Assembly: GCF_000760935.2 (NCBI RefSeq)
Contig: NZ_CP049744.1
Location: forward strand, 4,929,501 to 4,993,500
Source: Rhodococcoides fascians A25f
GTDB taxonomy: Bacteria > Actinomycetota > Actinomycetes > Mycobacteriales > Mycobacteriaceae
Direction of reading: 5' to 3'
DNA: 64,000 bases
The notes under the pieces are model-generated. The model was given only the letters and a program-made list of their open reading frames with translations, made no database searches and had not been told where the DNA came from. The position numbers were made by a program, and so were the translations under genes. Below, in pieces: positions 41,593 through 60,300 of this stretch (position 1 is its first letter; each line of letters opens with the position of its first letter).

Positions 41593-43397
41593 ACCGCGGT
41601 TTCCTTGACGAGAGCGATTGCCCGAGAGTTCAAATCGGCTGCCACTCGCAGGTCCTGCTCCAGCTGAGCAATGCGGGCGGCGCGGTCCGTGTTGTCGGCC
41701 GCGGCAGCTTCCTGCGCCGAGCGCAGGGACTCGTTCAGCGACCGCAGAGTCTGTTCGGCGATCGAGGTGAAGTGATCGCGCAGCACCCGCTGGATCTGCC
41801 GCAGCCGGTCCTTCGACTCCTTGCCGACCTGAAAGCTGACGTCGTCGGTGAAGCGGCGGATCGCCATCTTGGCCTCGGAACGACGTGCCTTGACGCGGTT
41901 TTCCTTGTCCTCCTTGTATGCCTTGGTGCCCAGCAGAACACCCGCGCCGATCGAGATCGGGTTGAGCAGACTCAACCCGACGAATGTGGTGATCAGACCG
42001 AACATGAGGACACCGCCGTAGGAGCCACGCATTCCCACGAGAACCTTCTGCGTGATACCGACACGACCGGATTCCAGCTCGGCCAACGACGAGACGGGTT
42101 CGAGAACGTTGTCCAGATCGCCGAGATCGAGATCCGGCAGCGCCGCAGCCCCGGAGGACGCGAAGTGCTCGGCCACCAACTCCGAGAGCCACAGTGCCCG
42201 CTCGTGCGCCCACACGAAGTTGTCGCCCACCGACGCGGCAATCTGCTCTTCGAGCCATTCGCCCAGTTGCGGCCAGTCCTTGCCCGGATCCCCCTCGTCG
42301 ACGGTCTCTTCCGCCTCCCGGGTGACGCGGCGCAACCGGTCGCGTAGATCGTGATCGATATCGGACGCCAGATCGGCAATGCCGTCACCGAGCGTCTGCT
42401 GCCATTGGGACGAGCGCTTGTGCAGTTCTTCGGCAGCGGATTTGGCGCGCTGCAGACCGGCGACGGCCGCGGCCGCCCGCTCCGGATCCTTCAGCGCCGC
42501 AAGCTCACTGCCGAACGACAGAGACAGGTGCTCGGTGACCGAGCGAACGTCGAGTGAAACCGACGCGCGAGCCAGCACATCCGCGCGGGCCACCACGTCG
42601 TCGCGCAGAAACGCGTAGAGCTGCTGAAAACCGGACTCGGCGTTGAGCTCCTCGTCGTTCAAACGCAGTGCGTGAGAGCGCAACAGAGACGACACCGGGA
42701 GCATCTGCACCTCGAGGCCGCCGCGATCGAGGTGCCCACGATTGGCCTCGACGATCTGCCGCCAGTGCGGATACAGATCGATCTTGGTGATCAGTACGGC
42801 CACGGCCGGGCAGAGCCCTTGCACCTGCCGGAGAAAGGACAGTTCGGGCTCGGTGAATTCGCGGGAGGCGTCGGACACGACGAGCACTGCGTCGGCGGAC
42901 GGAATGAGTCCCAATGTTCCTGCAGCGTGCGGATTTCCGTGCCCACCGACACCCGGTGTATCGACCAGCACCAGACCGTCGGCGAGCAGCGGACTCGGCA
43001 CTCCGATGTCCAGCCGCAACACTTCACGACCCTGAGCTCGGGGACTCGCCGGGGTGACGGTCGTGACCTCGTCGGCCGGCACGTCGACGCGGATGGGCTC
43101 ACTACCCGGATCTGCGAGAACCAGCTGCGCGGAGAAGCTCTCGGCGTTGGACACCACCGTCGGGATGGCCGTGGTCTCGTCGTCGCCGACCGAGCACACC
43201 GTCAGATTGAGCAGCGAATTCACGAACTGACTCTTGCCCTGCTTGAGCGGTCCGACCACGATGATGCGTCGGCGTGGATCCAGGACTCTCGACCGCGCCG
43301 CCTCGACCCGATCCACCAGGTCGGATCTTCCCGCCGATGTCGCCACCGCCGCGGTGCGATTCAACAGCTCGGCCAGCTCCGTTGTGTGCCCGTCCAT
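41589..43397 (-). CDS. iniA: IniA, dynamin-like membrane GTPase
   Basis: 602 aa. G1 is GPLKQGKSQFVNSLL, G3 is LVDTPGVGGHG, and G4 is LITKIDLY. The helical stalk is followed by two membrane-inserting segments in the region VLMFGLITTFVGLSLLNPIS then IGAGVLLGTKAY. The C-terminal coiled coil is rich in Ala/Glu. M. tuberculosis IniA is known to cut membranes like dynamin and to help cells tolerate isoniazid. A 14-bp hairpin separates it from iniB. Confidence 0.95.
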   Translation of the reverse strand: MDGHTTELAELLNRTAAVATSAGRSDLVDRVEAARSRVLDPRRRIIVVGPLKQGKSQFVNSLLNLTVCSVGDDETTAIPTVVSNAESFSAQLVLADPGSEPIRVDVPADEVTTVTPASPRAQGREVLRLDIGVPSPLLADGLVLVDTPGVGGHGNPHAAGTLGLIPSADAVLVVSDASREFTEPELSFLRQVQGLCPAVAVLITKIDLYPHWRQIVEANRGHLDRGGLEVQMLPVSSLLRSHALRLNDEELNAESGFQQLYAFLRDDVVARADVLARASVSLDVRSVTEHLSLSFGSELAALKDPERAAAAVAGLQRAKSAAEELHKRSSQWQQTLGDGIADLASDIDHDLRDRLRRVTREAEETVDEGDPGKDWPQLGEWLEEQIAASVGDNFVWAHERALWLSELVAEHFASSGAAALPDLDLGDLDNVLEPVSSLAELESGRVGITQKVLVGMRGSYGGVLMFGLITTFVGLSLLNPISIGAGVLLGTKAYKEDKENRVKARRSEAKMAIRRFTDDVSFQVGKESKDRLRQIQRVLRDHFTSIAEQTLRSLNESLRSAQEAAAADNTDRAARIAQLEQDLRVAADLNSRAIALVKETAV

Positions 43398-43509: not shown

Positions 43510-46062
43510 TCAGGGGTGCAGCGGATCGATGTCGTGATCGACCGTCACTGCGTGGCCGAGAGAATCGGCTGCCGAGTCCACCGAGCCGTGCAGGCTGCCG
43601 TCGCTGAACAGACTCGAATCGCTCTCGGCCTGTCCGAAGACGTTGGAGTCGACACTCGACCAGCCCGTGCCGGACGCGGTTGCGCCGCCGTCGAAGGAGC
43701 TGGAGTGCTCGAACGATCCCGACGCTGCACCGTTCGCGGCCGAGGAAAGGCTGCCGCCTGCACTCGCCAGTCCCTCCGCACCGGATTCCAGACCACCGGT
43801 GACGCTGCCCGCTGCCTGGCCACCGATGTCGGCAGCGGAATCAAACCCGCCGCCCACGGACGCCGCAGCGTCGGCACCAGCATCCAAACCCGTACCAACT
43901 CCCCCACCCACGGTGGAGGCGATGCCTCCACCGAGCGACGCACCGGCGTCGAGTCCGCCGCCGACGTTCGAGGCGATCTCGCCGCCCACCGAGGTTCCCG
44001 CGTCGACCACTCCGCCTGCCGCACCTTCGAGGCCGCCTGCGACGGATCCTGCCGTATTCGCAGCTCCTTCGAGGCCTGCGCCTGCGGATGCTGCCGCATC
44101 GATTCCGGTGCTGATGCCACCGGTCACAGCTCCTTCGAGTCCGGCTCCGGCCTGAGCCGCGGCGTCGACGCTGCCGGAAACTCCGCCGGCAACCCCGCCT
44201 GCGAGACCGCCACCGAGGCTGCCGAGTCCGGCGAGGCCACCCGACAAGCCGGCTCCCGCGTCGCCCAAACCGGCAAGTCCGCCGGTCAGGCCCGCACCGG
44301 CATTCCCGACGGCTGCGAGCCCACCGGTGACATCCGCACCCACGTTTCCGACGGCTCCGAGGCCGCCGGCCACATCTGCGCCGACCTGGCCGAGTCCGGC
44401 CAGTCCGCCGGTCAGGCCCGCGCCTACGCCGCCGAGTCCGGCGAGCCCGCCGGTCAGGCCGGCACCCACGCCGCCCACTCCGGCCAGACCGCCCGACAGA
44501 TCTGCGCCGACTCCGCCCACTCCGGCGAGTGCTGCGTCGACGGTTCCTGTGAGATCGGCTCCGGCGGCTACTGCTGTGTCGATCGCTCCGGACAGTCCTG
44601 CGCTCAGGTCGGCTCCGGCACCGAGTACGGCTCCGAGGTCGAGGGCTGCGCCGGTGTCGAGCACTGTGTCGAGTGCGGTGCCGAGCTGGGCTCCGGCGGT
44701 GCCGCCGACGCCGAATGCGGCTCCGAGGAGGCCCTCGAGGTTCCCGGCAACTCCACCGGCACCGGCGACTCCACCGGCCAGGCCACCTGCAAGTCCGCCG
44801 GCGATGTCGCCGCCGATGCCGGCACCTGCGCCGAGGACTCCCTCCACTGCGGTGTCGAGGGCAGCGGTCAGGCCGCCGATCGCGCTGGTGTCGAGGTCCA
44901 GTGCCGTTCCGAGTGCGCCGCCGACGACCGCGCCGACGCTGCCGCCCGCAGCCAGCAGGGCGTCGACGTCCAGGTCTGCGAGCGCACCGGCGTCGAGGAC
45001 GGCTCCGAGTGCGGTTCCGATGGATCCCGCGATGGCACCGTCGGCTGCGAACAGCCCACCGAGGCTGGCGCCGACGCCACCCGCGATGTCGCCGACCAGT
45101 GCGCCACCGGCACCGAGTGCTCCGTCCAGGGCTGCACCGACATCGGTCGTCAGATCTGCACCGATGGTGCCGAGGCCTGCCAGTGCGCCGCCGATGCCCG
45201 CGGTCAGAGCGGCACCGAGGTCACCTGCGATGTCGAGGCCGGCTCCGGCACCGAGGACGGCGTCGAAGACGCCACCGAGCGCCGTGCCGAGCTCGGCTCC
45301 GACGGTTCCGCCGACTCCGAAGATCGCGCCGAGCGCGCCGCTCAGTCCACCCTGGATGTCGGCCAGTGCGCCGAGGTCGACGGCACCGGTCGCGCCGAGG
45401 GCGGCGTCGAGGGCGGCCTGCAGTTGTGCAGTGATGTCGCCGCCGATCGCTCCCCCGATGCCCGCGCCTGCTCCGAGAAGACCGGTCAACGCAGCGCCGA
45501 GTCCGACGGTTCCGCCGAGCAGGCCGTCGAGGTCCAGATCCAGACCTCCACCGACACCGCCGCCGATTCCGCCACCGATGCCTGCACCTGCGCCGATCAA
45601 GGCGTCGAGGGCACCACCGAATGCAGCGCCGAGCTCCACGCCGATCTGGCCACCGACCGCCAGCGCGGCGGCGAGGGCTGCCTGCAGAGACGCGGCGATC
45701 TCACCCGTCACGTCGATTCCGCCGGTCAGGCTGCCGCCTGCAGCCAGTCCGCCGCCGGCGACTGCGCCTGCAGCCAGTCCGAGTCCGGCCGACAATCCGC
45801 CGCCGAGGCTCGCGCCTCCGGCGAGTGCGCCCTCGAGGCCTGCCGATCCGCCTGCACCCAAGATGGCCGACAGCTGGCTGCCCGCTCCTGCGAACAGACC
45901 CGACTCGGCGACCAGGGGTGCCACGGCGACGATGTCTGCGTGGGTCACGTCGCCGAGGCCGGCAGCGGCCAGCGTCGTCTCGGGGTTGGCGCAGTAGGCC
46001 GCTGCGGCCTGGTCGTCGCGCAGCAGGCTGAGGATGAAATCGAGTACGGCGTTGGTAGCCAT
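43510..46062 (-). CDS. iniB: IniB-like Ala/Gly-rich repetitive protein
   Basis: 850 aa from ATG 46062, preceded by AAGGAG. The N-terminal 50 residues (VLDFILSLLRDDQAAAAYCA ... TLAAAGLGDVTHADIVAVAP) match the conserved IniB head. Beyond residue 80 the chain is a glycine/alanine repeat of short units, such as GAALTAGIGGALAGLGTIG and GLTGGLAGLGGVGAGL. M. tuberculosis IniB is about 480 aa, so this protein is much longer. IniB is the first gene of iniBAC; its biochemical role is not known, and a surface or membrane-associated scaffold is often assumed. Confidence 0.9.
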   Translation of the reverse strand: MATNAVLDFILSLLRDDQAAAAYCANPETTLAAAGLGDVTHADIVAVAPLVAESGLFAGAGSQLSAILGAGGSAGLEGALAGGASLGGGLSAGLGLAAGAVAGGGLAAGGSLTGGIDVTGEIAASLQAALAAALAVGGQIGVELGAAFGGALDALIGAGAGIGGGIGGGVGGGLDLDLDGLLGGTVGLGAALTGLLGAGAGIGGAIGGDITAQLQAALDAALGATGAVDLGALADIQGGLSGALGAIFGVGGTVGAELGTALGGVFDAVLGAGAGLDIAGDLGAALTAGIGGALAGLGTIGADLTTDVGAALDGALGAGGALVGDIAGGVGASLGGLFAADGAIAGSIGTALGAVLDAGALADLDVDALLAAGGSVGAVVGGALGTALDLDTSAIGGLTAALDTAVEGVLGAGAGIGGDIAGGLAGGLAGGVAGAGGVAGNLEGLLGAAFGVGGTAGAQLGTALDTVLDTGAALDLGAVLGAGADLSAGLSGAIDTAVAAGADLTGTVDAALAGVGGVGADLSGGLAGVGGVGAGLTGGLAGLGGVGAGLTGGLAGLGQVGADVAGGLGAVGNVGADVTGGLAAVGNAGAGLTGGLAGLGDAGAGLSGGLAGLGSLGGGLAGGVAGGVSGSVDAAAQAGAGLEGAVTGGISTGIDAAASAGAGLEGAANTAGSVAGGLEGAAGGVVDAGTSVGGEIASNVGGGLDAGASLGGGIASTVGGGVGTGLDAGADAAASVGGGFDSAADIGGQAAGSVTGGLESGAEGLASAGGSLSSAANGAASGSFEHSSSFDGGATASGTGWSSVDSNVFGQAESDSSLFSDGSLHGSVDSAADSLGHAVTVDHDIDPLHP

Positions 46063-46177
46063 CTGGGTCTCCTTGACGAGTGGTGCTTCGTGGTTGATCA
46101 CAAAGCTATGCATCGGAGAGCCCCCGCCCAACGGGGCCGATCCCCCTACTACCCCGGGGGTCGCCAGGGGGCTGTCG

Positions 46178-46204
46178 TTAGGGGATCTGGGCGCTTTAGG
46201 GGAT
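46178..46204 (-). promoter_or_regulatory. Paired TTAGGGGAT elements in the iniB/Hsp70 divergent promoter region
   Basis: TTAGGGGAT occurs at 46178-46186 and 46196-46204, period 18 bases (seen as ATCCCCTAA from iniB). Further C/G-rich runs (46141-46172) lie next to them. The 261-base interval must contain the iniB and Hsp70 promoters. Direct repeats at 18-base spacing suit an activator such as the IniR-like protein encoded nearby. Confidence 0.45.
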
Positions 46205-46323
46205 TTCACTCGTTTCGCGCTCTAACCTGCTGTGAGACGTAACGAACAACGAACCCAGTCCGACAGTGCGAGTGACGGCAGTACCACTGACGGCTGGGGC
46301 GAGATGAAGGCGGCGACACCACT

Positions 46324-48099
46324 ATGAACGGCAAGAGTGCAGCCTGCGGAACGACAGGGACAGGGCTCGGCATACGTATCGGTTCGGTGACAGCGGCTGC
46401 TGCACTCGACACCGACCCCGTGACCTCGGTGGTCAAGCGCTCGGCACTCGATCTTCGCCCCGGCGCGGCCCCGAGCCTGGCCGAGCTGTGGGACCGATCG
46501 GCCCGCCACCTGATCAGCGGATTCGCCGACCGAGTGGGCGACCCGGTGGAACTCATCGACGACGACGGCCGCAGTCACCGCGCCGAGGATCTGTACGCCA
46601 CAGCCGCTCGCGCACTCGTGGCCGAGGTCTCCGCCGGAGCCGATTCCGCCCCGACGGTCGTCGTCACCCACCCCACCCGCTGGACGGCGTACACAGCCGA
46701 GGCCCTCGGCGAGGCATTGGACCGCGCCGGCCTGGCCGATGTCACGCTGGTACCCGACTCCGTTGCCACGATGCGCTGGCTCGAGGTGACCCGCGGAACA
46801 CAGTCCGACGGCCTCGCCGTCATCTACGACCTGGGTGCCAGCGCCCTCGACGTGACCCTGATCCGGACCGGCACCGACGCCGGAGTCGTCGGCAGCGGCG
46901 TCCATTCGCAGGAATTCGGCGGTGCGCAGTTCGATCACGCGATCATGCAGTACGTCCTCGATACCGTCTCGGGAAGTCAGTCGTTCGAGTTCGATCCGTT
47001 CGACCCCGACACCGTGGGTGCGCTGGTGGAATTGCGAGCCCGGTGTGGCCAGGCCAAGGAACAACTCTCCTACGACACGTCCACCTCGCTCACCGTCGAC
47101 CTGCCCGGCCTGCACACCGAGGTTCGCCTGGTGCGCTCCGAGATCGAAGAGCTGGTACGCGCATCGCTGCTGGCATCCGTGGGGGTCGTTCGGGACGCCG
47201 TGGCCGCCGCAGGACTCGAGGTCACCGACATCGACCAGGTGGTGCTCGTCGGCGGCAGCTCGGCCATCCCCCTCGTTGCCGAACTCATCTCGTCCGAACT
47301 GCGCGCCCCCGTAGTAGCCGGACCTCGTCCGGAACTGACCGTCGCGATCGGAGCCGCGATACTCGGAAGCGACATCGCCGACGCCACCGCCGCAGAAGAC
47401 GCAGCGTCCCTGGCTGCGGTCCCGACCGCGTCCGTGGCTACCGCTGCCGCCGCGCCGATGCCGCGCCCCACTCCGAGACCGGCACCGACGCCTACCGCCG
47501 TCGAATCCGACGCAGGCATGTCGGGCCGTAAGAAGGCCGGCCTCGTCGCCGGATCCGTGGTCGTCCTCGCGCTTCTCGCCGGCGGAGGCCTGTCGGTGGG
47601 TACAGCGTTGACCTCCGACAACACCGCTCCGGCCGAGTCCAACGCCGAGATCTCGAGCACACAAACACCGGGAACCACCTCCGCAGTTGCGGACGCCCAG
47701 CCCACGACGGCTGCTCCCGGCGAGAACGACGCTGCTGCAGTCGGATCCGAGGGCACCCCCACCACGGTCGTCAACGCCGACGGCACGGTGACGCAGATCG
47801 ATCCGGCCACCGGAGCACCGGTTGCGGGATCCCCTGCCCCCGCCGCGGCCCCTGCCGACAACGGCGCAGCAACCGTGCCGACCATCCCGTCGGTCGCGGC
47901 CCCGACGGTTCCCAGCTACCAACCACCTGCTGTGCAGGTTCCGAGCGTGCAGGTTCCCAGCTACCAAGGCCCCAATCTCGGCGATGTCGGTCAAGGCCTC
48001 GGCGGAGTCGTCGGGGGAGTCGGTGACGGGCTCGGCGGTGCGGTCGGTGGCGTCGGCGACGGGCTCGGCGGAGTCGTCGGCGGCCTGACCGGCCGCTGA
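46324..48099 (+). CDS. Membrane-anchored Hsp70-like protein A
   Basis: 591 aa. The actin-like ATPase domain (residues 15-350) has a phosphate-2 region VIYDLGASALDVTLI and adenosine motif VVLVGGSSAIPLV, while the first phosphate loop is degenerate (GLGIRIGSVTA). A membrane helix (KKAGLVAGSVVVLALLAGGG) follows at about residue 400. The outer part is Pro/Thr/Ala-rich and ends in Gly-rich repeats (GGVVGGVGDGLGG). It is divergent from iniB and ends 7 bases before the IniR-like gene. There is no substrate-binding domain, so it is not a folding chaperone in the usual sense. Confidence 0.85.
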   Translation: MNGKSAACGTTGTGLGIRIGSVTAAAALDTDPVTSVVKRSALDLRPGAAPSLAELWDRSARHLISGFADRVGDPVELIDDDGRSHRAEDLYATAARALVAEVSAGADSAPTVVVTHPTRWTAYTAEALGEALDRAGLADVTLVPDSVATMRWLEVTRGTQSDGLAVIYDLGASALDVTLIRTGTDAGVVGSGVHSQEFGGAQFDHAIMQYVLDTVSGSQSFEFDPFDPDTVGALVELRARCGQAKEQLSYDTSTSLTVDLPGLHTEVRLVRSEIEELVRASLLASVGVVRDAVAAAGLEVTDIDQVVLVGGSSAIPLVAELISSELRAPVVAGPRPELTVAIGAAILGSDIADATAAEDAASLAAVPTASVATAAAAPMPRPTPRPAPTPTAVESDAGMSGRKKAGLVAGSVVVLALLAGGGLSVGTALTSDNTAPAESNAEISSTQTPGTTSAVADAQPTTAAPGENDAAAVGSEGTPTTVVNADGTVTQIDPATGAPVAGSPAPAAAPADNGAATVPTIPSVAAPTVPSYQPPAVQVPSVQVPSYQGPNLGDVGQGLGGVVGGVGDGLGGAVGGVGDGLGGVVGGLTGR

Positions 48100-48106
48100 G
48101 TCGACC

Positions 48107-50614
48107 GTGATCAGCATCCGACCATCCCTCGTCGGCGTCGAACGCGCCGATCGTTTCGTCCGTGATGTCCTCGACACCACTGGTTTCCATGTTGTCGTCG
48201 GAGTGAACGGGTCCGGTCGTTCCGCTGTTCTCGACGCGATCGCGGCGTCGGTGGATCCGCATCCGGGCAGCATCGCCGATGCACCGTCCGGCTCGACGGT
48301 TCTCGTCGACGATGCGCATCTGCTGTCGGAGCAGAGGTTGGACGAGATCGCTGCGGCGGCGACTCGCTCGGACATCACACTGGTCGTGGCGACGGCTCCG
48401 CGCGAGTTCGACTCTCGCATCGAGAAGTTGATCGCGTCGGCCGGTTCCGGTCGACTGACTCTGGTTCCGCTGGACAAGTCATCGATCGCCGCACGAGCAG
48501 CCGCCACTGCACGGCCCATCTCTGCGGCACTGGCCAATGCGATCGCGAAGTCCACCGGGGGAATTCTTGCCGCCGTCGACGCGGCTCTTGCCGCGCTCGG
48601 CGCAGAACTCTCCGACCCGGCTCCCCTGCGAGTGGTTTCCGAAGCCGTTGCTGCACAGCATCGTCGGATGTTGCTCGACACCGCCGACGACACACGGGCA
48701 CTGCTGCTCGCGGCTCGATTCGGTATCGCTCCCGAGCCCGCGACGGCCGCGCAGCTCGTCTCGCGCTCGAACGAGGTCGAATCTGTCGTCGACCTCGCCT
48801 GCAGCTCCGGCTTGCTCGACTCCACCGGCACGTTGATTCCGGCCGCCGAGGTTCCCTTGACCGAGCTGATCGGCGATCGGCGCTGCCGCGTCCTGCTCCA
48901 TTCCGTCACCGACGTAGCAGCCCGATCCCGCCTGCTCGACGCCACCGCCGCGCGTGCGCTGGCGCAGCGAGGCGTCGTTCATGCCGGTCTGGCCGACTTT
49001 CTTGTGCAGCAAGCAGATTCGGCGTCTGTCGAGACTGCGGGCGCGCTGTACGACGCCGCCGTCGATGCCGGTTTCGATCCGCCGGCGCTCGCCGCCCGGC
49101 GGGCCGAGGTCGCGGCCGCCGCCGGCGATCTGGACGAGGCGGGGCGCTACGCCGATGAGATCCTCGACAGCGCCGCCGTCTGCGACTCCTCGGATCTGCG
49201 GACGGCTGTTCGAGTCTCGGCCTCGATTGCCGCACAGCGCGGAATGCTCTCCCGCAGCGCGCAATTGTTCGTCTGGCTCGGCGAGGATCGACTCGGGCCC
49301 GATGGGGTGTGGGCCGCTCTGTCCGCTGCCGCAGCCGGTGATCGCAGCGGCGCGGACCGGTCGATGACCGCCGTATCCGCGCTTGCGCCGACATCGAGCA
49401 CTGCGTCGGGCACCTTACTGGTGGCCGGCGTCCTCGGGTCGATCGATTCTCGCAGTGCAGCCGAGTCGAGCGCTGCCGCACACTCGTTGATGCGCGCACT
49501 GTCGTTGACCGGCAATGTATCCGATCGTTCGTGTGCCACCGACACCGCCGCGGCCGTCGCGGCCCTTCATGCAGTGCACTGCGGCGACCTCGCTCGCGTC
49601 GATTCCATCCTGGCGCGGGCGCTGCCGGACCGGCGTCCAGGATCCGAGGCACACACCCGACTGATCCTCCTGGGGGCATGGGCGTCCATGCTGCGGGGCG
49701 ATGCAACCGAGGCGAGCTCTACGCTCGATACACTCCGGATTCCGTTGTCCCACATGCGCAATCAGCTCTTCCTGCACGCGATCAGGGTGGGCCTGGCACG
49801 CAGATCGGGTGACGCAGGATCGCTGATGACGGCATGGACCGGTGCACAGAACGTCATCGCCGAATACTCCGCAGATCTGTTCGCACTACTACCTCTGGGC
49901 GAATTACTCTTGGCTGCAACCCGACTCGGCCAGGTCGACCGCGTCGAACATCTTGTGGGGCAGGCCTCCGATCTGCTCGCCGCGCTCGGAGATCCGCCCG
50001 TGTGGGCATCGGCGCTGCACTGGTATCAGGTTCAGGCGGCCATCGTGGCGCAGACTCCCGACGCGCTGGTGCCGCACGCCAAGGCTCTCGCGGCAGCCGC
50101 TCCCACCCACCCCTACAGCGCCGCCCTCGCCGCGGCCGGTCGCGCCTGGCTCGGCGTGTTGCAGGGCAGGCCCGACCCGACCGATGTGGAGAATTCGGCA
50201 CGAACGCTGACCGCGTTCGGACTGCCCTGGGACGGAGCCCGATTGGCCAGCGAGGCGGCGCTGACCGTCAGCGATACCGCGACCGCAACCGCACTGCTGC
50301 ACATCGCCAGGTCGCTGCGTCAAACCGGATCGCAGCCGCCCAACTCGCACCGACGCGACAGTTCGGGAACCACGCCGACACCGACGGGTTCGCTGAGCGA
50401 ACGCGAGGCCGAGGTCGCCGAGTTGCTCGTGCTCGGAGTCACGTACCGCGAGGTGGGCAGCCGCCTCTACATCTCCCCGAAGACCGTCGAACATCATGTG
50501 GCTCGAATACGACGCAGACTCGGGGCCGAGTCTCGTTCCGAGCTCATCTCGATGCTGCGCGCTATGGGATACGGAGGCTCCACCAGCGCGGCGACCGGCA
50601 CTGTAACTGTGTGA
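48107..50614 (+). CDS. iniR: IniR-like LuxR/STAND regulator
   Basis: 835 aa from GTG 48107. The N-terminal P-loop ATPase is reduced: VVGVNGSGRSAVLD carries G-x-x-G-x-G-R-S rather than GKS/T. Then come a VLVDDAHLL Walker B-like segment and about 400 residues of TPR-like helices. The C-terminal LuxR helix-turn-helix is LSEREAEVAELLVLGVTYRE then LYISPKTVEHHVARIRRRLG. Size and domain order match the MalT/LAL type and IniR (Rv0339c) of M. tuberculosis, which is next to iniBAC and is reported to activate it in response to free trehalose. Here it lies between Hsp70-like genes. Confidence 0.82.
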   Translation: MISIRPSLVGVERADRFVRDVLDTTGFHVVVGVNGSGRSAVLDAIAASVDPHPGSIADAPSGSTVLVDDAHLLSEQRLDEIAAAATRSDITLVVATAPREFDSRIEKLIASAGSGRLTLVPLDKSSIAARAAATARPISAALANAIAKSTGGILAAVDAALAALGAELSDPAPLRVVSEAVAAQHRRMLLDTADDTRALLLAARFGIAPEPATAAQLVSRSNEVESVVDLACSSGLLDSTGTLIPAAEVPLTELIGDRRCRVLLHSVTDVAARSRLLDATAARALAQRGVVHAGLADFLVQQADSASVETAGALYDAAVDAGFDPPALAARRAEVAAAAGDLDEAGRYADEILDSAAVCDSSDLRTAVRVSASIAAQRGMLSRSAQLFVWLGEDRLGPDGVWAALSAAAAGDRSGADRSMTAVSALAPTSSTASGTLLVAGVLGSIDSRSAAESSAAAHSLMRALSLTGNVSDRSCATDTAAAVAALHAVHCGDLARVDSILARALPDRRPGSEAHTRLILLGAWASMLRGDATEASSTLDTLRIPLSHMRNQLFLHAIRVGLARRSGDAGSLMTAWTGAQNVIAEYSADLFALLPLGELLLAATRLGQVDRVEHLVGQASDLLAALGDPPVWASALHWYQVQAAIVAQTPDALVPHAKALAAAAPTHPYSAALAAAGRAWLGVLQGRPDPTDVENSARTLTAFGLPWDGARLASEAALTVSDTATATALLHIARSLRQTGSQPPNSHRRDSSGTTPTPTGSLSEREAEVAELLVLGVTYREVGSRLYISPKTVEHHVARIRRRLGAESRSELISMLRAMGYGGSTSAATGTVTV

Positions 50615-50673
50615 GGGCCCGAAGCGACATAACGACCGACCACCGGTAACCGATCAGAACAGGCAGCACCCCC

Positions 50674-51795
50674 ATGACCGAGCAGCCCGGCAGTGTGAGG
50701 ATCGGCACGCCGGACGTCGGCCTCTATCTGGACGACGAACGCGCCGTCGCCGCGGTGTCGCATCCCATTGCGCCCGGCCCGTCGCTGCACCTGGCGTCGC
50801 TGCACTCGACCGTGCTCAACACTTATCCCGACGGCACCGTCTCGCTCGGAGACGCACCCGACGAGAAGTCGGAGGCGTACACGCACTTCCTCGGCTCTCT
50901 TGCCGACGGCGTCGGCGTCACCGGCAGCAAGGGCACCGTCTTCCCGGCCGAGCAGCTGACGTCGATGGCCCTGTTGTGCCTGCTCACCGAGGTGGCGTCG
51001 TCGATCGATCTGCAACCCGGCGACCTCGCCGCGGCCGCCACCTACCCGGCCCGCTGGACGGCCGATCAGGTCTTCGCGTTGCGTTCGGCGATGAATGCGC
51101 ACGGCCTCGCGCACGTGTCGCTGGTGGCCGAAGCGGAGGCGCTCGCTGCGTGGAATGCATCGGTACGAGCGACCCTCGAGAGCAGGGACACAGCCGTCGC
51201 CGCAGCGCGCGGTGCTGCGATTCTGGCCTCGGAATTCCCCGTCGACGCCGTCACCGAACGGATCGCGGTGCTGTCACCCACACGATCCGACCGTCGCCCT
51301 CTGTTCGCGGCGGCGGCGTTCGCCTCGGCGTTGATCGTCGGCGCGTCCCTGATCGCGCTGCAACTGGGGACCTCCACCGACACGACGGTGCCCACCATCG
51401 GCAACGCCCAGCTGATACCGCCGACGACGTCGTCCGGGGCCGGAGCCGGTGGCCCGATCGATTTCCCCACCGTCGTCGTGGAGCCGGCCGCCGAGATTGC
51501 CCCGGTCGCACCTCTTCCGCTGGAAACTACCGAAGACACGCGCCCGGCCGAAACCTCCGAGAACCCTCGAAGCAAGCCGGACCCGACCGAGATCGACACC
51601 CGCCCGGCGCTCGAAGCGCCCGAGACCAGAGACCCCGAAGAACCGCGTGAGACCGTCGATCCGGTCGAACCCGAACCGGAGGTCCCGGTCGAGGGACCGG
51701 GCGACGACACCGGCGAGACGACCGAACCGGATTCGACCGAACCACAAACCGTGACCGAGCAGGCACGTGACGCAGCGACAGAGGGAACTCGATGA
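50674..51795 (+). CDS. Degenerate membrane-anchored Hsp70-like protein B
   Basis: 373 aa. Only the first part of the ATPase fold is left: residues 60-175 include AAATYPARWTADQVFALRSA and LVAEAEALAAW, which match paralogs A and C at the same place. The phosphate-2 and adenosine motifs are missing. A membrane helix (LFAAAAFASALIVGASLIAL) follows at about residue 215. The outer 140 residues are Pro/Glu/Thr-rich. It cannot be an ATPase as it stands, so it may be a partner or a sensing subunit. The stop overlaps the next gene by 4 bases. Confidence 0.8.
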   Translation: MTEQPGSVRIGTPDVGLYLDDERAVAAVSHPIAPGPSLHLASLHSTVLNTYPDGTVSLGDAPDEKSEAYTHFLGSLADGVGVTGSKGTVFPAEQLTSMALLCLLTEVASSIDLQPGDLAAAATYPARWTADQVFALRSAMNAHGLAHVSLVAEAEALAAWNASVRATLESRDTAVAAARGAAILASEFPVDAVTERIAVLSPTRSDRRPLFAAAAFASALIVGASLIALQLGTSTDTTVPTIGNAQLIPPTTSSGAGAGGPIDFPTVVVEPAAEIAPVAPLPLETTEDTRPAETSENPRSKPDPTEIDTRPALEAPETRDPEEPRETVDPVEPEPEVPVEGPGDDTGETTEPDSTEPQTVTEQARDAATEGTR

Positions 51796-53432
51796 GCGGT
51801 GCGGGGCATCTCGGAATCACCGTCGGCAACACCAGGTCGGTGGCGGTCCACCGCGTCCGCGCCGACGACGAGCCGACGGTCGTCGTAGTACCGACAACTC
51901 TGAGATTCGACGAGGACGGTCGCGCCCATCTCGGCGAACCCGCCGACACAGCGCCCTTCACCCGGTTCGTGGACCTGGTCGGTCAGCAGGAGGACCTCGA
52001 ACCCGACGCCGCCGCGTACCGCGCCGAGGACTTGATGGCCAACGCGGCCAATTGCCTCGTCACCATGATGTCTTCGGCAACCGAGTCGGCCGACGCACCC
52101 GTCACGACCATGACGTACCCGACGCGATGGCCGCGCGAGAGCGTTGCGCTGCTGCGTGATGCCCTCGATCACGCCGGCCTCACCGCAATCGCACTGGTGC
52201 CCGACGCGAAGGCCGCCAGCACCTTCGCGCAGCGCAACCCCGGCACGGCCGCCACGGTGATCGACATCGGTGCCACCGGCACCGATGTCTCGACGTATCC
52301 CGGAGGCGGAACGGTTCGCACCACTGCCGTCAGCGGAGACGTGTTCACCGACGCACTGTTCGATCACGTGGTGACCGATCGCGAACACATCGATCTGTCC
52401 GACGCCGCAGTCCTGGCCGCCCTCACCGGCGTCGTTGCCTCCTGCGAGGCAGCCAAACATGCGCTCAGCACGGACGAGCAGGCCACCATCTCGGTCGATC
52501 TGCCGGGCCTGTCGCAGACCACGACCGTGACGCGAGCCGAGTTCGCAAACCTGGTCGCGCCTTCGGTCCGCACCCTCGACGTGCCGCAGACCGGCACCGT
52601 GGTGCTCACCGGAGGCAGCGCCGAACTGGAGTCGGTGGCGGCGGAGATTGCCGAACGGACGTCGGGCCGGCTGGTTGTCGAGCCACTCGCAGCGCCCCGA
52701 GGCGCACTGCTGCTGGCCGAGGTCGACGATGTCGACGGCAATTCTCTCGTCACCGGTGCCGCGCCGATCGTCACCCGCAACGACGGCACCGATTCGCTCG
52801 ACACCGACGCCATTCCTGTTGTCCCGCTGGAGAAGTCCCTCGCATTCTCCGAGGCCCTGCCGGCGGTGGCACCGATGTTCGAGCCCTCGGAGTTCCGGTC
52901 CCACCCGGTCGAACCGGCCGAGGAGAACGCGTCGAACACCGGTGACGTGCCGGCTGTTCTTGCCCCGGCTGTCGCGTCGACCGAGGCCAAGAAGGAACGC
53001 AGCGAACGCTCGCGCACCATCACCACCGTCATTGCCGGTGCTGCGGCGGGCGTGGTGATCGTGCTGGCGATCGCGGCAGTCAGCGGCGTGTTCGGCAGTT
53101 CGCCGGCTCCGACGCCCCCGGCCGTCACCGACGCGGGCTCGCCGGTCGTCACCTCGACCCGCACGCCGTCGACCACTACCGTCACTCCCGCTCCAGCCGT
53201 CGTCGTGCCGGAGGAGGTCGACGAACCGACGTACGAGCCGTACACCCCGCCCCAACCCACACCGCAGCCTGCGCCGCCGCCGGCACCGATCCCCACGCCC
53301 CCGCCCGTGGTCGCCACCACAGTCCCGGTGCCGACCACGACCCCGGTGACGACCACCCCGGCCGCGACGACCACAACGACAGCTACCACCACCACGACGA
53401 CAACCACAACGACGACGGCAGCTCAGCCCTGA
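51792..53432 (+). CDS. Membrane-anchored Hsp70-like protein C with poly-Thr tail
   Basis: 546 aa. The ATPase-like domain (residues 5-320) has HLGITVGNTRSVAV, VIDIGATGTDVSTY and VVLTGGSAELESV in the positions of the three Hsp70 nucleotide motifs, all diverged. A membrane helix (ITTVIAGAAAGVVIVLAIAA) follows at about 415. The outer segment is Pro-rich and ends in a run of about 35 Thr/Ala residues. It is coupled to protein B by ATGA. With proteins A and B it makes a family of three in one locus. Confidence 0.85.
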   Translation: MSGAGHLGITVGNTRSVAVHRVRADDEPTVVVVPTTLRFDEDGRAHLGEPADTAPFTRFVDLVGQQEDLEPDAAAYRAEDLMANAANCLVTMMSSATESADAPVTTMTYPTRWPRESVALLRDALDHAGLTAIALVPDAKAASTFAQRNPGTAATVIDIGATGTDVSTYPGGGTVRTTAVSGDVFTDALFDHVVTDREHIDLSDAAVLAALTGVVASCEAAKHALSTDEQATISVDLPGLSQTTTVTRAEFANLVAPSVRTLDVPQTGTVVLTGGSAELESVAAEIAERTSGRLVVEPLAAPRGALLLAEVDDVDGNSLVTGAAPIVTRNDGTDSLDTDAIPVVPLEKSLAFSEALPAVAPMFEPSEFRSHPVEPAEENASNTGDVPAVLAPAVASTEAKKERSERSRTITTVIAGAAAGVVIVLAIAAVSGVFGSSPAPTPPAVTDAGSPVVTSTRTPSTTTVTPAPAVVVPEEVDEPTYEPYTPPQPTPQPAPPPAPIPTPPPVVATTVPVPTTTPVTTTPAATTTTTATTTTTTTTTTTAAQP

Positions 53433-53507: not shown

Positions 53508-54806
53508 ATGCGTAACACCGGGGCTCTGCGTGCTGCAGTGCTGTGCTCGACGGCTTTCCTACTGTTCGCTTCGTTCTCCGGAACAGCGGCCGCCGAGCCC
53601 GTCGTCCAATCTCCCGCCGATCGGCTTCCCGCAGAGCTTGTCGAGGCCGTGCAGCGCGATCTGAAGATCTCTCCGCAGGAGTATCTCGATCGAGCCGCTC
53701 GTGCGCAGGAACTGTCCGCCTACGCATCGGACTTCCGTGCCAGCCGCCCCGCCGATTTCGCCGGCGCATGGATCGGACCCGACGGCAACGCCGTAGTCGC
53801 CGTCACCTCCCCTGCCGCAGCACAGGCAGTGGCCAAGGACGGATATGCCACTGCTCAGTCACCCGTGTCGGCGGACGGGCTGGAGAAATCGCTCGCAGAC
53901 CTCAACGGCTGGATCGCCGGCCTCCCCCGTGAGATCTCCGAGCAGATCAACGGAACGGCCATCGACTTCATCGACAACCAGGTGGTCATCGACCTGGTGA
54001 ACAGCCCGATCGGTAGCGCGCTCAACCTGCCGACTCTGCTGGCCAACATCAAGGTCATCCTCTCCCCCGGCGGAAACAAGCCGGTCGACCCGACTCCCAT
54101 GGGCGGCGACACCTATGTCACCAGCACCGGGCCCATCGCGGACGCTCCGACCACCGACATCAGCATCTGTTCGTTCGGATTCAACGCCGTCGACAAGTCC
54201 GGCGAAGCCGTCAACTTGACTGCGGGACACTGCAATCCGAACAAGGCCACCGGAGCCGGCGGTGCACCGGTGTACCTTCCCGACCCGGCGGACATTGCGC
54301 GCAGCACCCAGATCGGGTCGTTCGATCGGTCGAGCCTGGGCGCACAGGACGGCCTCGACTGGTCGGTGATCGCCCTGAACGACAGCGGCATTGCGTCCGG
54401 CCTCGACCGTCCCACCGTCCGCGGAGCCAACGGCAGCACCGTCACGATCACCGGAACCGCAGCACCCGTGATCGGAGCGCCGGTCTGCAAGTCCGGTCAG
54501 TCCTCGTCGTTCACGTGTGGCGTTGTTGCCGCCGACCGCGTCGAGACACAGCTCTACATGGAGGACGGCACCTCCCGCACGGTTCGTGGATTCGCCAGTA
54601 CCGCGTGCACTCTGGCGGGCGACAGTGGCGGTGCCATCGTGACGGGAACACTCGCGCTCGGAATCACCAGCGGATCCAACAGCGGTGGCGCGCCCGATTG
54701 CAACGAGGCGAACCTGGCGTTGGCGCAGTACGGCGGCACCGCGAGCCTGGGCATTCCCATCGATCAGGTCGTCGACGCAACCGAATCCACCCTGCGAACC
54801 GAGTAA
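53508..54806 (+). CDS. Secreted trypsin-like serine protease 1
   Basis: 432 aa. A signal peptide (about residues 1-29, ending GTAAA-EP) and a pro-region of about 170 residues precede an S1 (streptogrisin-like) domain. The triad is His241 (LTAGHC), Asp284 (GLDWSV) and Ser373 (AGDSGGA), with three Cys pairs likely. The pro-region has the PAELVEAVQRDLKISPQEYL block. Such enzymes are made as inactive precursors and self-process after export. Closely related to the next gene. GAAGG precedes the start. Confidence 0.93.
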   Translation: MRNTGALRAAVLCSTAFLLFASFSGTAAAEPVVQSPADRLPAELVEAVQRDLKISPQEYLDRAARAQELSAYASDFRASRPADFAGAWIGPDGNAVVAVTSPAAAQAVAKDGYATAQSPVSADGLEKSLADLNGWIAGLPREISEQINGTAIDFIDNQVVIDLVNSPIGSALNLPTLLANIKVILSPGGNKPVDPTPMGGDTYVTSTGPIADAPTTDISICSFGFNAVDKSGEAVNLTAGHCNPNKATGAGGAPVYLPDPADIARSTQIGSFDRSSLGAQDGLDWSVIALNDSGIASGLDRPTVRGANGSTVTITGTAAPVIGAPVCKSGQSSSFTCGVVAADRVETQLYMEDGTSRTVRGFASTACTLAGDSGGAIVTGTLALGITSGSNSGGAPDCNEANLALAQYGGTASLGIPIDQVVDATESTLRTE

Positions 54807-54884
54807 GCCGGTACGTCGACAGCTGCGCACCCCCTATAGTCGTGAACGGCATCACATCGCGGATGCCTTGGGGGAGGGGTTTCG

Positions 54885-56012
54885 ATGCGTCGCCGTGCGC
54901 TGGGGTTGTCGATGGTTGCAGTGTCGTGCCTGATCACGATGGCGGTGTCTGCTCCTGTCGCCACTGCAGCGCCCATGGTGAACGCAGATCAGGTGCTGCC
55001 GCCCGAGTTGGCCGACGCCGTCGCCCGTGATCTTGCGCTGAATCCGCAACAGTTCCTCGACCGAGCCGACGCGGCTCGCCGGTTGGCGGAGTTCGCTTCC
55101 GCCGTCGGTTCCGAGGCTGTCACGGGTACTTGGCTCGATGCGGACGGTCGGCCTGTCGTCGCGGTCGCGGACGGCCCCACCTACGCCGAGGTGACCGACG
55201 CCGCATCGGCCAACGGATTCGTAACGGTCGCGCCCGGGATAGAGATCCCGCAGGGAGTGCGCGACGCCGTCGACCCGCTGCTGGAGTTGCTTCCCTTCGA
55301 CCTCGCGCCCACTGCCGGTCCGATTCGCGCCAGTTCCTATCTCGGCGGAGACAGCTTCCTCGCGGGCACCCCGGCCGGCCTCGGTCTGCGTTGCTCACTC
55401 GGATTCAATGCCGTCGACCCGACGCGTGGTTCGGTCAACATCACTGCGGGCCATTGCGATCCGGGCGCAGCCGACACCGGTTCCGCAGCGTCGACCGGCG
55501 CGTATCCGATGTACGGGAGCCTCGTCGGATCGAAGTTCGGCTCGTTCTACCGAACCAGCCAGTCGCACAACGATTACGCCTTGATCGACATCGACGACGC
55601 CAACGTCGGAGAATTCGAGAGCAATGCGGTGCGAGTGCCCGGCTCGGGACCGCTGCACGTCACCGGAACGGTGAACCCCATCGTGGGTGCACCGGTCTGC
55701 AAGTCCGGTTCCAGAACCGGATTCAGTTGCGGCACAATCCTGTCCACGGGCCGCAGCGTCGCCATGGGTGAGGCCGCCATGGACCGTAGCTTCTCCACCT
55801 CCATCTGCGCCCTCCGCGGCGACAGCGGTGGACCGATCGTCAGCGGCACCCTCGCCGTCGGCATCGCCAGCGCATCGAACGTGGGCGATCAACCGTCCTG
55901 CGAAATCGCGATGGTGTTCAGCATGCTGCAGGGCCAGCGACCCGAGCTGTTCGCCACCCCCATCAACGATGTGTTGGCCGAGAACCCCGGTCTGACGGTT
56001 CGCACGTCGTAG
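54885..56012 (+). CDS. Secreted trypsin-like serine protease 2
   Basis: 375 aa. The signal peptide is MRRRALGLSMVAVSCLITMA... then a shorter pro-region (PPELADAVARDLALNPQQFL) and an S1 domain with His190 (ITAGHC), Asp230 (HNDYALID) and Ser314 (RGDSGGP). It shares layout and motifs with protease 1, so the two are a tandem duplication that has diverged. A TATAGT hexamer (54833-54838) and GGAGGGG before the start suggest it also has its own promoter. Ends at a strong terminator. Confidence 0.92.
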   Translation: MRRRALGLSMVAVSCLITMAVSAPVATAAPMVNADQVLPPELADAVARDLALNPQQFLDRADAARRLAEFASAVGSEAVTGTWLDADGRPVVAVADGPTYAEVTDAASANGFVTVAPGIEIPQGVRDAVDPLLELLPFDLAPTAGPIRASSYLGGDSFLAGTPAGLGLRCSLGFNAVDPTRGSVNITAGHCDPGAADTGSAASTGAYPMYGSLVGSKFGSFYRTSQSHNDYALIDIDDANVGEFESNAVRVPGSGPLHVTGTVNPIVGAPVCKSGSRTGFSCGTILSTGRSVAMGEAAMDRSFSTSICALRGDSGGPIVSGTLAVGIASASNVGDQPSCEIAMVFSMLQGQRPELFATPINDVLAENPGLTVRTS

Positions 56013-57332: not shown

Positions 57333-60300
57333 ATGAACGCCCTGACGATCACGTTGGGCACAGTCGGTGCTCTGCTCAGCCTCGTGTGTTGGTTCGCCTT
57401 CATCCGCGGGGCCCTGCGCATGTTCAACATCGTGAGGCTGGGTCAGCCGGCACCCGACCGTTGGCGACCGATCGTCCCCCGCTTCAAGCAGATGATCATC
57501 GAGTTCGCCGCCCACACCAAGATGGTCAAGTTCCGTACCGTCGGCTGGGCGCACTGGCTGGTGATGATCGGCTTCATGGTCGGGTCCGTGTTCTGGTTCG
57601 AGGCCTACGGACAGACGTTCAACCCCGAGTTCCACTGGCCCATCGTCGGTGACACCGCGATCTACCACCTGATGGACGAGATTCTCGGGCTCGGCACGGT
57701 TATCGGCATCACCACGCTGATCATCATTCGCCAGCTCAACCACCCGCGGAAGCCCGAGCGTCAGTCGCGCTTCGCCGGCTCCGGGTTCAAGGCCGCCTAC
57801 TTCGTCGAGGCCGTCGTGCTCATCGAGGGCCTGGGCATGGTGTTCGTCAAGGCGGGCAAGATCGCCACCTACGGACACTCGAACCCGTACACCGACTTCT
57901 TCACGATGCGCCTCGCCGAGCTGCTGCCGGCCAACTCCAACATGGTCTCGATCTTCGCCCTGATCAAATTGATGTCCGGCATGATCTGGCTCTACATCGT
58001 GGGCACCCGCATCAACTGGGGCGTCGCGTGGCACCGCTTCACCGCGTTCCCGAACATCTACTTCAAGCGCATGGACGACGGCACCGTCGCCCTCGGACCG
58101 GCCAAGCCGATGATGTCCGGCGGCAAGGTCCTGGAAATGGAAGAGGCCGATCCCGACGTCGACGCGTTCGGCGCAGGCAAGATCGAGGACTTCAGCTGGA
58201 AGGGCTGGCTCGACTTCACCACGTGCACCGAGTGCGGCCGCTGTCAGTCGCAGTGCCCCGCGTGGAACACCGGCAAGCCCCTCTCCCCCAAGCTGCTGAT
58301 CATGTCGCTACGCGACCACAGCCACGCCAAGGCCCCGTACCTGCTGGCCGGCGGCAAGAAGGACATGGCCGGTGACGAGGTCGGACTCGTCGACTCCGAG
58401 GGCAACGTCGATCAGGCCAAGCTCGACGCCATCCCGCAGGCCGCCCGGGACGAGGCCGATCGCAAGCTCGTCGCCGACGCCATCGAGGGCGGCATCATCG
58501 ACCCCGAGGTGCTGTGGAGCTGCACCACCTGTGGTGCCTGCGTCGAGCAGTGCCCGGTGGATATCGAGCACGTCGACCACATCATCGACATGCGCCGCTA
58601 CCAGGTGCTCATCGAATCCGAGTTCCCGTCCGAGCTCGCAGGTCTGTTCAAGAACCTCGAGAACAAGGGCAACCCGTGGGGCCAGAACTCCAAGGACCGC
58701 CTCAACTGGATCAACGAGATGGACTTCGACATCCCGGTCTTCGGCCAGGACGCCGATTCGTTCCAGGACTACGAGTACCTCTTCTGGGTCGGCTGCGCCG
58801 GTGCCTACGAGGACCGCGCGAAGAAGACCACCAAGGCCGTTGCCGAGCTGCTCGCCACCGCAGGCGTGAAGTTCATGGTGCTCGGTGCCGATGAGACCTG
58901 CACCGGCGACTCCGCTCGCCGTGCGGGCAACGAGTTCCTGTTCCAGCAGCTCGCGATGCAGAACATCGAGACGCTGAACAATGTGTTCGACGGCGTCGAG
59001 CAGACCAAGCGCAAGATCGTCGTCACCTGCGCCCACTGCTTCAACGCACTCGGCAACGAGTACCCGCAGGTCGGCGGCGACTACGACGTGGTGCACCACA
59101 CGCAGCTGCTCAACCGCCTCGTGCGCCAGAAGAAGCTGATCCCGGTGGCCTCGGTCAGCCAGGACATCACGTATCACGATCCGTGCTACCTCGGCCGTCA
59201 CAACAAGGTCTACGACGCCCCGCGTGAGCTCATGGCCGCGTCGGGCTCCAACCTCAAGGAGATGCCGCGTCACGGTGAGCGGTCCATGTGCTGTGGTGCC
59301 GGTGGCGCTCGCATGTGGATGGAAGAGAACATCGGCAAGCGCATCAACATCGACCGGGTCGACGAGGCACTCGCGACCAACCCGAAGAAGATCGCCACAG
59401 GTTGCCCGTTCTGCCGTGTGATGCTCACCGACGGTGTCACTGCCCGGCAGGAAGGCGGCGCGCACGAAGGCGTCGAGGTTGTCGATGTCGCGCAGCTGAT
59501 GCTCGAGTCGATCACCCGCGTCGAGTCCTCGGTGTTGGCCGAGAACATCAAGGTAATCCCCCGCGAGCGCACCCCTCAGGAGGAGCTGGACACCGAGAAC
59601 GCAGCCGAGGTCGAAGAGGCCGAGCGCATCGCACCCGTCGAGGAGCCTGCGGAAGCGAAGTCCGCTCCGGCCGCGCCCGCTCCGAAGGCCGGCGGCGGTC
59701 TGAAGATGAAGGGTCTGGCCAAGGCACCAGGGGCGAAGGCACCCGGTTCGGCTGCCAAGACCGACACCGCCGAGCCTGACGCCGAAGGGGCTGCTCCCGC
59801 CGACGCTGCTCCGAAGCCGAAGGGTCTCGGAATGGCCGGAGGCAAGGCACCCGGTGGCAAGGGTCTGCAGATGAAGGGCAAGGCTCCCGGCGCGAAGGCG
59901 TCGGCACCTGCAGCTGCACCTGCCGATGCTCCCGCTGCGTCCGACGCACCCGCCACAGCCGAGGCTTCCGAGTCGACCCCCACCGTCAAGCCCAAGGGTC
60001 TGGCCGTGAAATCGGGATTCAAGAAGCCGGGAGCCAAGGCACCGGGCAAGCCCGCCGAAGCTGCACCGGCGGCTGCAGCGGCCCCGGAGACCTCGGGTGA
60101 ATCCGCGGAATCCGGTGCTGCGGCAAGCGAATCCAAGCCGACCGTCCAGCCGAAGGGCCTGGCCGTGAAGTCCGGATTCAAGAAGCCGGGAGCCAAGACC
60201 GCGAGTGCCCCTGCGGCGAAAGCTCCGGCTGCCGAGGCACCTGCTGCTGAGGTATCTGCTTCCGAGGCACCAGCTGCTGAGGCCGCGACCTCGGAAGCAC

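Follow-up and report, generated by a model that had tools for sequence, protein, structure and literature searches.

The closest described counterpart of the system studied here is the mycobacterial IniR-iniBAC locus, for which the available text of the original report states that iniBAC of Mycobacterium tuberculosis and M. marinum is driven by IniR with trehalose as the cue, that the domains of IniR are MalT-like, and that chromatin immunoprecipitation placed IniR just 5' of iniBAC (PMC5760070). The same work already notes a dnaK-like neighbour of iniR in M. smegmatis, its available text using the word dnaK once and the word Hsp70 not at all (PMC5760070), so the bare neighbourhood of iniR and an Hsp70-like gene is not new. 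We analyzed a stretch of 64,000 nucleotides (the window) from the 5.89 Mb genome of Rhodococcoides fascians A25f (contig NZ_CP049744.1, positions 4,929,501 to 4,993,500), in which three Hsp70-like genes, hsp70-A, hsp70-B and hsp70-C, surround iniR. The regulator is of the same kind as in the mycobacterial locus and lies in the same divergent layout to iniBAC, but iniB* stands between iniR and iniBAC in the available description (PMC5760070), whereas Hsp70-A stands upstream of iniR in the window. Hsp70-B and Hsp70-C moreover belong to another clade than the Mycobacterium copies downstream of iniR. The explanation that we favour, with a confidence that falls just short of even, is that Hsp70-A is the third, membrane-anchored part of an IniR-controlled IniA/IniC dynamin machine, and that Hsp70-B and Hsp70-C form a separable module linked to proteases. 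An earlier reading of the window (the original prediction) held that no system of this composition had been described. The M. smegmatis neighbour narrows that statement to four elements presented below, namely the promoter boxes, the half-head, the proposed partnership with dynamins and the conservation of the family, none of which was found in our searches of open-access papers.

In the window, iniC, iniA and iniB are followed by hsp70-A, iniR, hsp70-B, hsp70-C, two protease genes and an Fe-S reductase gene. As had been predicted, the three Hsp70-like genes and iniR are co-oriented, opposite to all three genes of iniBAC, and tightly packed, with gaps of 7 bases between hsp70-A and iniR and 59 bases between iniR and hsp70-B, and an ATGA overlap between hsp70-B and hsp70-C. 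The features of the iniR-iniBAC unit are the following (NBD, nucleotide-binding domain; TM, transmembrane; ORF, open reading frame).

40132..41592, minus strand: iniC, dynamin-like GTPase (Dynamin_N E 1.6e-9; gene order iniB-iniA-iniC)
41589..43397, minus strand: iniA, dynamin-like GTPase (Dynamin_N E 2.9e-14)
43510..46062, minus strand: iniB, Gly/Ala-rich with a conserved N-terminus (ORF 43510-46209; ATG of MATNAVLDF at 46060-46062)
46324..48099, plus strand: Hsp70-A, NBD head (residues 11-357), TM helix (~405-425), Gly/Ala-rich outer tail
48107..50614, plus strand: iniR, N-terminal P-loop region and C-terminal LuxR (GerE) helix-turn-helix (NF038181, 467 bits; PF00196 above cut-off)

The start of iniC was inferred at 41592, a longer frame in the ORF list extending to 42258. 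IniA and IniC both contain the Dynamin_N GTPase domain, scoring 53.9 and 38.5 bits to PF00350 (cut-off 27). IniR scores 467.4 bits to NF038181 over residues 29-820, which is under the curated cut-off of 750 but makes this by far its closest model; its GerE match (E 8.1e-14) is above the cut-off and its AAA-type matches are under it. The gene is divergent from iniBAC, as expected for iniR, and the protein is, as judged by synteny, a divergent ortholog of IniR.

To define how firmly Hsp70-A is linked to this locus, we made use of a sample of named loci, comprising the window and the 80 best among at least 539 relatives, a choice that favours near ones, and of a family survey of 121 genomes with a threshold for iniR of E 1e-20. 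Hsp70-A lies directly 5' of iniR in all 74 of the 81 named loci that have enough upstream sequence. In the family survey iniR is present in 63 genomes, 56 of which carry an A-like gene upstream on the same strand within 2.5 kb, and in 55 of the 63 the iniR-adjacent gene is the best match to P0001 in the genome. Among the seven exceptions, three have iniR at a contig end (G064, G091 and G048, the best P0001 match of G064 and G048 being on another contig), one has iniR split into two matches with an Hsp70 gene about 0.95 kb upstream (G065), one has a diverged Hsp70-A in place (G011, 119 bits), and two have Hsp70-A beside iniC (G085 and G031). In genus g29, which we infer to be Mycobacterium, iniR was found in 54 of 78 genomes and Hsp70-A upstream of it in 34 of the 54, among the matches listed; in at least five of the other 20, iniR is split between contigs or reaches a contig end (G157, G127, G145, G126, G158). 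We read twelve g29 loci (11 fetched, plus G085) that were picked because Hsp70-A was not upstream. In all twelve, iniB* adjoins iniR and no Hsp70 gene is directly beside it, although one (L146) has two weak Hsp70 matches downstream (29 and 16 bits). An A-like gene abuts iniC in six of these loci, three stretches stop before iniC, and in G178 a match, among those listed, lies 2.6 kb past iniC, just outside the stretch read. Since Hsp70-A often abuts iniC when it is away from iniR, the link is with the whole iniR-iniBAC locus, and this tie is real and strict. The neighbourhood of IniR thus bears out the original prediction for Hsp70-A, and not for Hsp70-B and Hsp70-C, which are separable. In Williamsia herbipolensis, a tandem pair of Hsp70-A-like genes lies between iniB and iniR (L094:6163-9888). 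Three Mycobacterium loci (L104, L105, L109) have an Hsp70-like duplicate downstream of iniR that groups with Mycobacterium Hsp70-A and not with Hsp70-B or Hsp70-C; these duplicates may correspond to the dnaK-like gene described in M. smegmatis.

The same data bear on the possibility that the three are ordinary membrane Hsp70-like paralogs with an unrelated housekeeping use, found near iniR by synteny alone. The family is indeed larger than the trio originally described: the genome has nine Hsp70-like genes above the Pfam cut-off (Hsp70-A included, the other eight located elsewhere) in addition to two DnaK genes, with Hsp70-B and Hsp70-C coming on top of the nine, and the region is near dnaK. 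However, the iniR-adjacent gene would then hardly be the best P0001 match in so many iniR genomes. A tree that includes nine paralogs from this genome sets seven of them apart as a separate group, while the two that follow a second dynamin pair join another, and the relocations of Hsp70-A seen so far all remain inside the iniBAC locus. We consider this explanation improbable.

The region between iniB and hsp70-A holds conserved TTAGGGGAT direct repeats. We compared this region in 72 loci, which are not independent because the sample leans to near relatives (45 remain after removal of near-copies). In the window the repeats are represented by two features.

46143..46148, minus strand (that of iniB): TAGGGG box, candidate IniR site
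46179..46204, plus strand: tandem TAGGGGAT-N10-TAGGGGAT, candidate IniR operator, the sole exact copy in the genome

TAGGGG/CCCCTA occurs at 8.2 per kb in the 72 regions versus 0.078 per kb outside, with at least one copy in 69 regions and at least two in 60. Start-to-start spacings of 18 bases are the most frequent (44 pairs), and 47 of the 72 loci have a pair spaced at 17-19 bases, compared to two such pairs in 1.49 Mb outside. Besides the exact repeat at 46179-46204, the genome has one further match with two mismatches; a control with the pattern reversed and up to two mismatches gave one match per strand. The twelve g29 loci without Hsp70-A upstream have a pair 15-16 bases apart before iniR (12/12) and one 8 bases apart before iniB (11/12), and the tandem pair is absent from the stretches with Hsp70-B or with the second dynamin module. 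It is likely that IniR binds these boxes, probably in the way MalT binds its direct repeats, and the tandem TTAGGGGAT boxes would then couple production of Hsp70-A to that of iniR and probably also to that of iniBAC. A reading of the boxes as inverted repeats was rejected in favour of direct repeats, the spacing of TAGGGG..CCCCTA being variable and TAGGGG-N6-CCCCTA with two mismatches occurring once in the window against an expectation of 0.57. A ATGAAGTCGAG.. motif of the intergenic set was likewise discarded, as it corresponds to the first codons of iniB. Many of the loci listed (46062-46324 in the window, and relatives) also have a CCCAACGGGG element and a CATAGC-like stretch in the interval that separates the boxes from iniB.

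The association of Hsp70-like with dynamin-like genes is not confined to the iniR locus. The same genome has a distant second Dynamin_N pair, scoring 73 and 93 bits to IniA and IniC, which is followed by two membrane Hsp70-like proteins.

L120:1161-8728 (G000:C1:3751160-3758727): second dynamin/Hsp70-like locus

A strong relative of the second dynamin was found in 37 of the 121 genomes and, among the matches listed, all 37 also have a strong Hsp70-like relative, located within 20 kb in 32 cases (within 1 kb in 17) and on a different contig in five; the thresholds, which we chose ourselves, were E<1e-40 for dynamin, E<1e-55 for Hsp70-like proteins and, for the half-Hsp70 discussed below, a match spanning more than ~270 model positions. 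The stretches searched around the second dynamin contain no IniR relative. This co-occurrence favours a partnership between dynamins and membrane Hsp70-like proteins for which IniR is not needed. In addition, evolutionary distances over 42 loci suggest that Hsp70-A tracks IniC more than IniR: the correlation is 0.948 with IniC (partial 0.535) and 0.808 with IniR (partial 0.264), while IniA is second in the full correlation (0.895) and lowest in the partial one (0.189). Three further observations concern such genes elsewhere. The outer domain of the first Hsp70-like protein of the second locus matches NF051431, the C-terminal domain of Rv0361 (46.9 bits, cut-off 37). An 894-residue ORF 5' of a second dynamin pair (L119:12244-14925) is weakly similar to its Hsp70-like partner (60 bits) and has no Pfam match. 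At L124:10000-14673, the genes for another membrane Hsp70-like protein and for a 1148-residue regulator with BTAD, AAA and NB-ARC matches are arranged head to head, which gives a second instance of an NTPase regulator next to such a protein.

The main rival for Hsp70-A starts from E. coli, where MalK holds MalT. Similarly, the head of Hsp70-A could keep the MalT-like IniR at the resting membrane and free it upon wall damage. Such a tether would fit the strict co-oriented position of Hsp70-A upstream of iniR, the MalT-like domains of IniR in the available account (PMC5760070), and the candidate boxes, which resemble the MalT box GGGGA(T/G)GAGG in containing GGGGAT and in being arranged as direct repeats. 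It does not explain why all twelve g29 loci, chosen because Hsp70-A is not upstream, keep the boxes with no Hsp70 gene directly beside iniR, why Hsp70-A tracks IniC above IniR, or why Hsp70-like genes accompany the other dynamin pair although the stretches searched there contain nothing related to IniR. We regard the tether as rather unlikely. That Hsp70-A is an obligatory sensor for IniR everywhere is also unlikely, because the twelve iniB* loci of g29 lack an iniR-adjacent Hsp70 gene and iniBAC of M. tuberculosis and M. marinum is IniR-driven in the available text (PMC5760070). The proposal that the heads inform IniR or the dynamins thus retains its basis in the locus link of Hsp70-A, but the three proteins are not one iniR-bound set, and signalling to IniR is not the sole fit to A-like genes that abut iniC, a second dynamin pair without an IniR relative and an Hsp70-A that follows IniC.

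With regard to architecture, the original prediction gave each of the three proteins an actin-like head, one membrane helix and a Pro/Thr-rich outer tail. Each indeed consists of a head, a single TM helix and a tail, the sequence blocks that were said to unite them are present (THPTRW, TYPARW and TYPTRW, and LVPD, LVAEA and LVPD, in A, B and C, respectively), and their paralogy is backed by profiles and the tree. The head is an NBD in A and C, but lobe I alone, with no nucleotide site, in B, which rules out three equal Hsp70 heads. The tails of B and C are Pro/Thr-rich, whereas that of A is Gly/Ala-rich (P 0.11, T 0.11, G 0.18); among 74 Hsp70-A tails, 36 have at least three GG[VLAIT] motifs and 10 have a P+T content above 40%. 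A TM helix was detected in 51 of 52 A-type entries, preceded by 2-7 basic residues and followed by 0-2, each counted over 15 positions, and therefore the A head is predicted to be inside and the tail outside, as had been proposed. Also in line with the original prediction, Hsp70-A and Hsp70-C lack a chaperone client domain, because their PF00012 matches stop inside the NBD (profile positions 119-373 and 123-312 of 599, respectively) and are followed by the TM helix and the tail. Hsp70-C scores 28.7 bits to PF00012 (cut-off 20.6) and keeps the phosphate-2 and adenosine motifs. The predicted structure of Hsp70-A has the two-lobed NBD fold, with most blocks of the tail under pLDDT (predicted local distance difference test) 60. 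Hsp70-A of the window keeps the phosphate-2 and adenosine motifs but has Arg for the phosphate-1 Asp. Across the 74 family members, the phosphate-2 Asp is present in 73 and the adenosine GG in all, while the phosphate-1 Asp/Glu is kept in five and Lys at the Lys70 column in none (48 being gaps, and one having Lys within four positions). Given the known roles of the DnaK active-site residues, a complete ATPase site, which includes the phosphate-1 Asp and Lys70, is lacking.

The cytoplasmic head of Hsp70-A would thus probably still hold ATP, and since the hydrolysis residues are lost it would be a slow or ligand-gated conformational switch rather than a chaperone. A single helix would take the protein across the membrane and a flexible tail would reach the wall. 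In the dynamin-machine explanation that we favour, the head would dock on IniA/IniC and control their assembly at the damaged membrane, with the tail positioning it there. Several observations weigh against this explanation. In most genomes Hsp70-A adjoins iniR and not a dynamin gene, and distance correlations between linked genes are weak evidence. No Hsp70-like gene was found within 2.3 kb and 0.7 kb past iniC in L150 and L154, two of the twelve g29 loci read, and therefore IniA/IniC may work without Hsp70-A. The Hsp70-like heads of the second locus have intact phosphate-1 and phosphate-2 motifs, though the Lys70 column has no Lys in them either, and the mechanisms of the two systems may therefore differ. 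As to IniR control, the abstract of the mycobacterial study states that IniR of M. tuberculosis regulates iniBAC exclusively (PMC5760070), and among diverged cases L136 (G031, with a distant IniR) lacks the tandem box, whereas L138 (G011) shows a single box.

The genes downstream of iniR follow a different pattern. Their features in the window are listed below.

50674..51795, plus strand: Hsp70-B, half NBD consisting of lobe I (residues 10-188), TM helix (~210-230), acidic Pro/Thr tail
51792..53432, plus strand: Hsp70-C, NBD head, TM helix, Pro/Thr-rich tail; shares a clade with Hsp70-B
53508..54806, plus strand: secreted trypsin-like serine protease 1, signal-like N-terminus, AGHC and GDSGG (NF051463 22.8 bits, cut-off 175)
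54885..56012, plus strand: secreted trypsin-like serine protease 2 (PF00089 E 3.8e-7; NF051463 42.9 bits, under cut-off)
57333..60776, plus strand: Fe-S binding reductase, used as reference gene and, by synteny, presumably Rv0338c-like

Hsp70-B has no Pfam or NCBIfam match. Its profile aligns to DnaK residues 31-188, and with lobe II the phosphate-2 and adenosine motifs are missing, so that, as judged from its motifs, the head cannot bind nucleotide in the Hsp70 way. The 42 half-heads surveyed include one 161-residue ORF that lacks a TM helix (L082) and two that are cut off by the end of a contig (L088, L097). The two divergent proteases at 53508-56012, which the original prediction did not include, follow Hsp70-C and are conserved with Hsp70-B, also in genomes without a detected iniR. 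Protease 1 has no Pfam match; AGHC and GDSGG are both present in 94 of the 99 protease ORFs surveyed.

Of the 73 loci whose sequence extends 6 kb or more downstream, 47 have an Hsp70-like gene downstream of iniR; a protease is present in 45 of these 47, and the two exceptions (L104, L109) carry Hsp70-A duplicates; the 57 downstream Hsp70-like ORFs are a lower bound, as early-start frames were missed (for example in L063, L098 and L110). Strong half-Hsp70 matches number 32 in the 121 genomes, among the matches listed, 21 being directly downstream of iniR and 11 not. Ten of these 11 places (L126-L135) were read; all ten have Hsp70-B with at least one protease, nine have two proteases, and IniA, IniC and Hsp70-A were not detected in the stretches. 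Eight of the ten come from genomes without iniR at E 1e-20, one genome has iniR on another contig (G078), and one keeps an iniR fragment beside Hsp70-B with the full iniR elsewhere (G031). In four of the eight (G022, G082, G096, G109), P0001 gives weaker partial matches alone (E ~1e-20 to 1e-22). None of the eight matches the second-dynamin query at the strength of IniC, an insensitive test, and one of the genomes, G045, has the second module. Retention of Hsp70-B and proteases in eight genomes without detected iniR indicates that Hsp70-B goes with the proteases, and rules out that all three Hsp70-like proteins are tied to iniR.

These data weigh on the model of the original prediction, in which the three outer tails would sense the wall and the three heads would signal to IniR and the dynamins, all acting as a single sensor. 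Predicted topology and tight gene packing would suit it. However, Hsp70-B has no nucleotide site and occurs with proteases where iniR is not detected, low-complexity tails that differ between clades would make a poor specific sensor, and the copies found downstream of iniR in L104, L105 and L109 are duplicates of Hsp70-A in their own right; the model is highly doubtful. A better prospect, which we hold as a serious possibility somewhat below even, is that Hsp70-B, Hsp70-C and the two proteases are an envelope proteolysis unit of their own that happens to be flanked by the iniR unit and the Fe-S reductase gene. It is compatible with our explanation for Hsp70-A and accounts for the company of proteases kept by Hsp70-B both downstream of iniR and away from a full iniR; eight loci with proteases but without Hsp70-B or Hsp70-C imply that the unit is not obligatory. 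The lobe-I head of Hsp70-B would serve purely as a binding surface in a module with Hsp70-C and the two secreted proteases.

More generally, and with considerable doubt, dynamin-like GTPases and membrane Hsp70-like switches may be a recurrent membrane-repair device of Mycobacteria, rhodococci and their kin, with at least two locus types. The half-Hsp70 would be derived from it, having probably lost lobe II more than once, and would be a nucleotide-free docking module (lobe I, helix and tail) for an envelope protease unit. A conserved single-lobe Hsp70 protein would be a new reuse of the actin/Hsp70 fold. In mycobacteria iniBAC is a standard wall-drug stress reporter; a conserved Hsp70-like membrane protein in its locus would be a testable missing part, and the direct-repeat boxes a testable candidate IniR operator. 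To our knowledge the M. tuberculosis locus has no Hsp70-like gene, and for this reason the part may have escaped study.

Compared to known systems, Hsp70-A shares the NBD fold of Hsp70/DnaK (PF00012), and A and C share its phosphate-2 and adenosine motifs, but a TM helix and an outer tail replace the client domain, the phosphate-1 Asp is gone in most A proteins, and B is without lobe II. MalT of E. coli resembles IniR in its domains and in its G-rich direct-repeat boxes; the candidate boxes of the present locus, however, are TTAGGGGATTT-like and most often repeat with a period of 18 bases, and the candidate membrane partner is Hsp70-like, unlike the ABC ATPase MalK. The MalT box itself is given as GGGGA(T/G)GAGG in the available part of its source (PMC7567727). 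Described GTPase-centred systems also have GTPase genes beside an Hsp70 without the client domain; they combine HSP70, GrpE and a second HSP70 without the peptide-binding domain with GAP1-N2 or other TRAFAC GTPases and FNIII or tubulin parts, and the available text does not use the word dynamin (PMC7159879). Finally, the mycobacterial dynamin-like IniA is the counterpart of IniA and IniC of the window, and its description, as far as available, mentions neither Hsp70 nor DnaK (PMC6715688).

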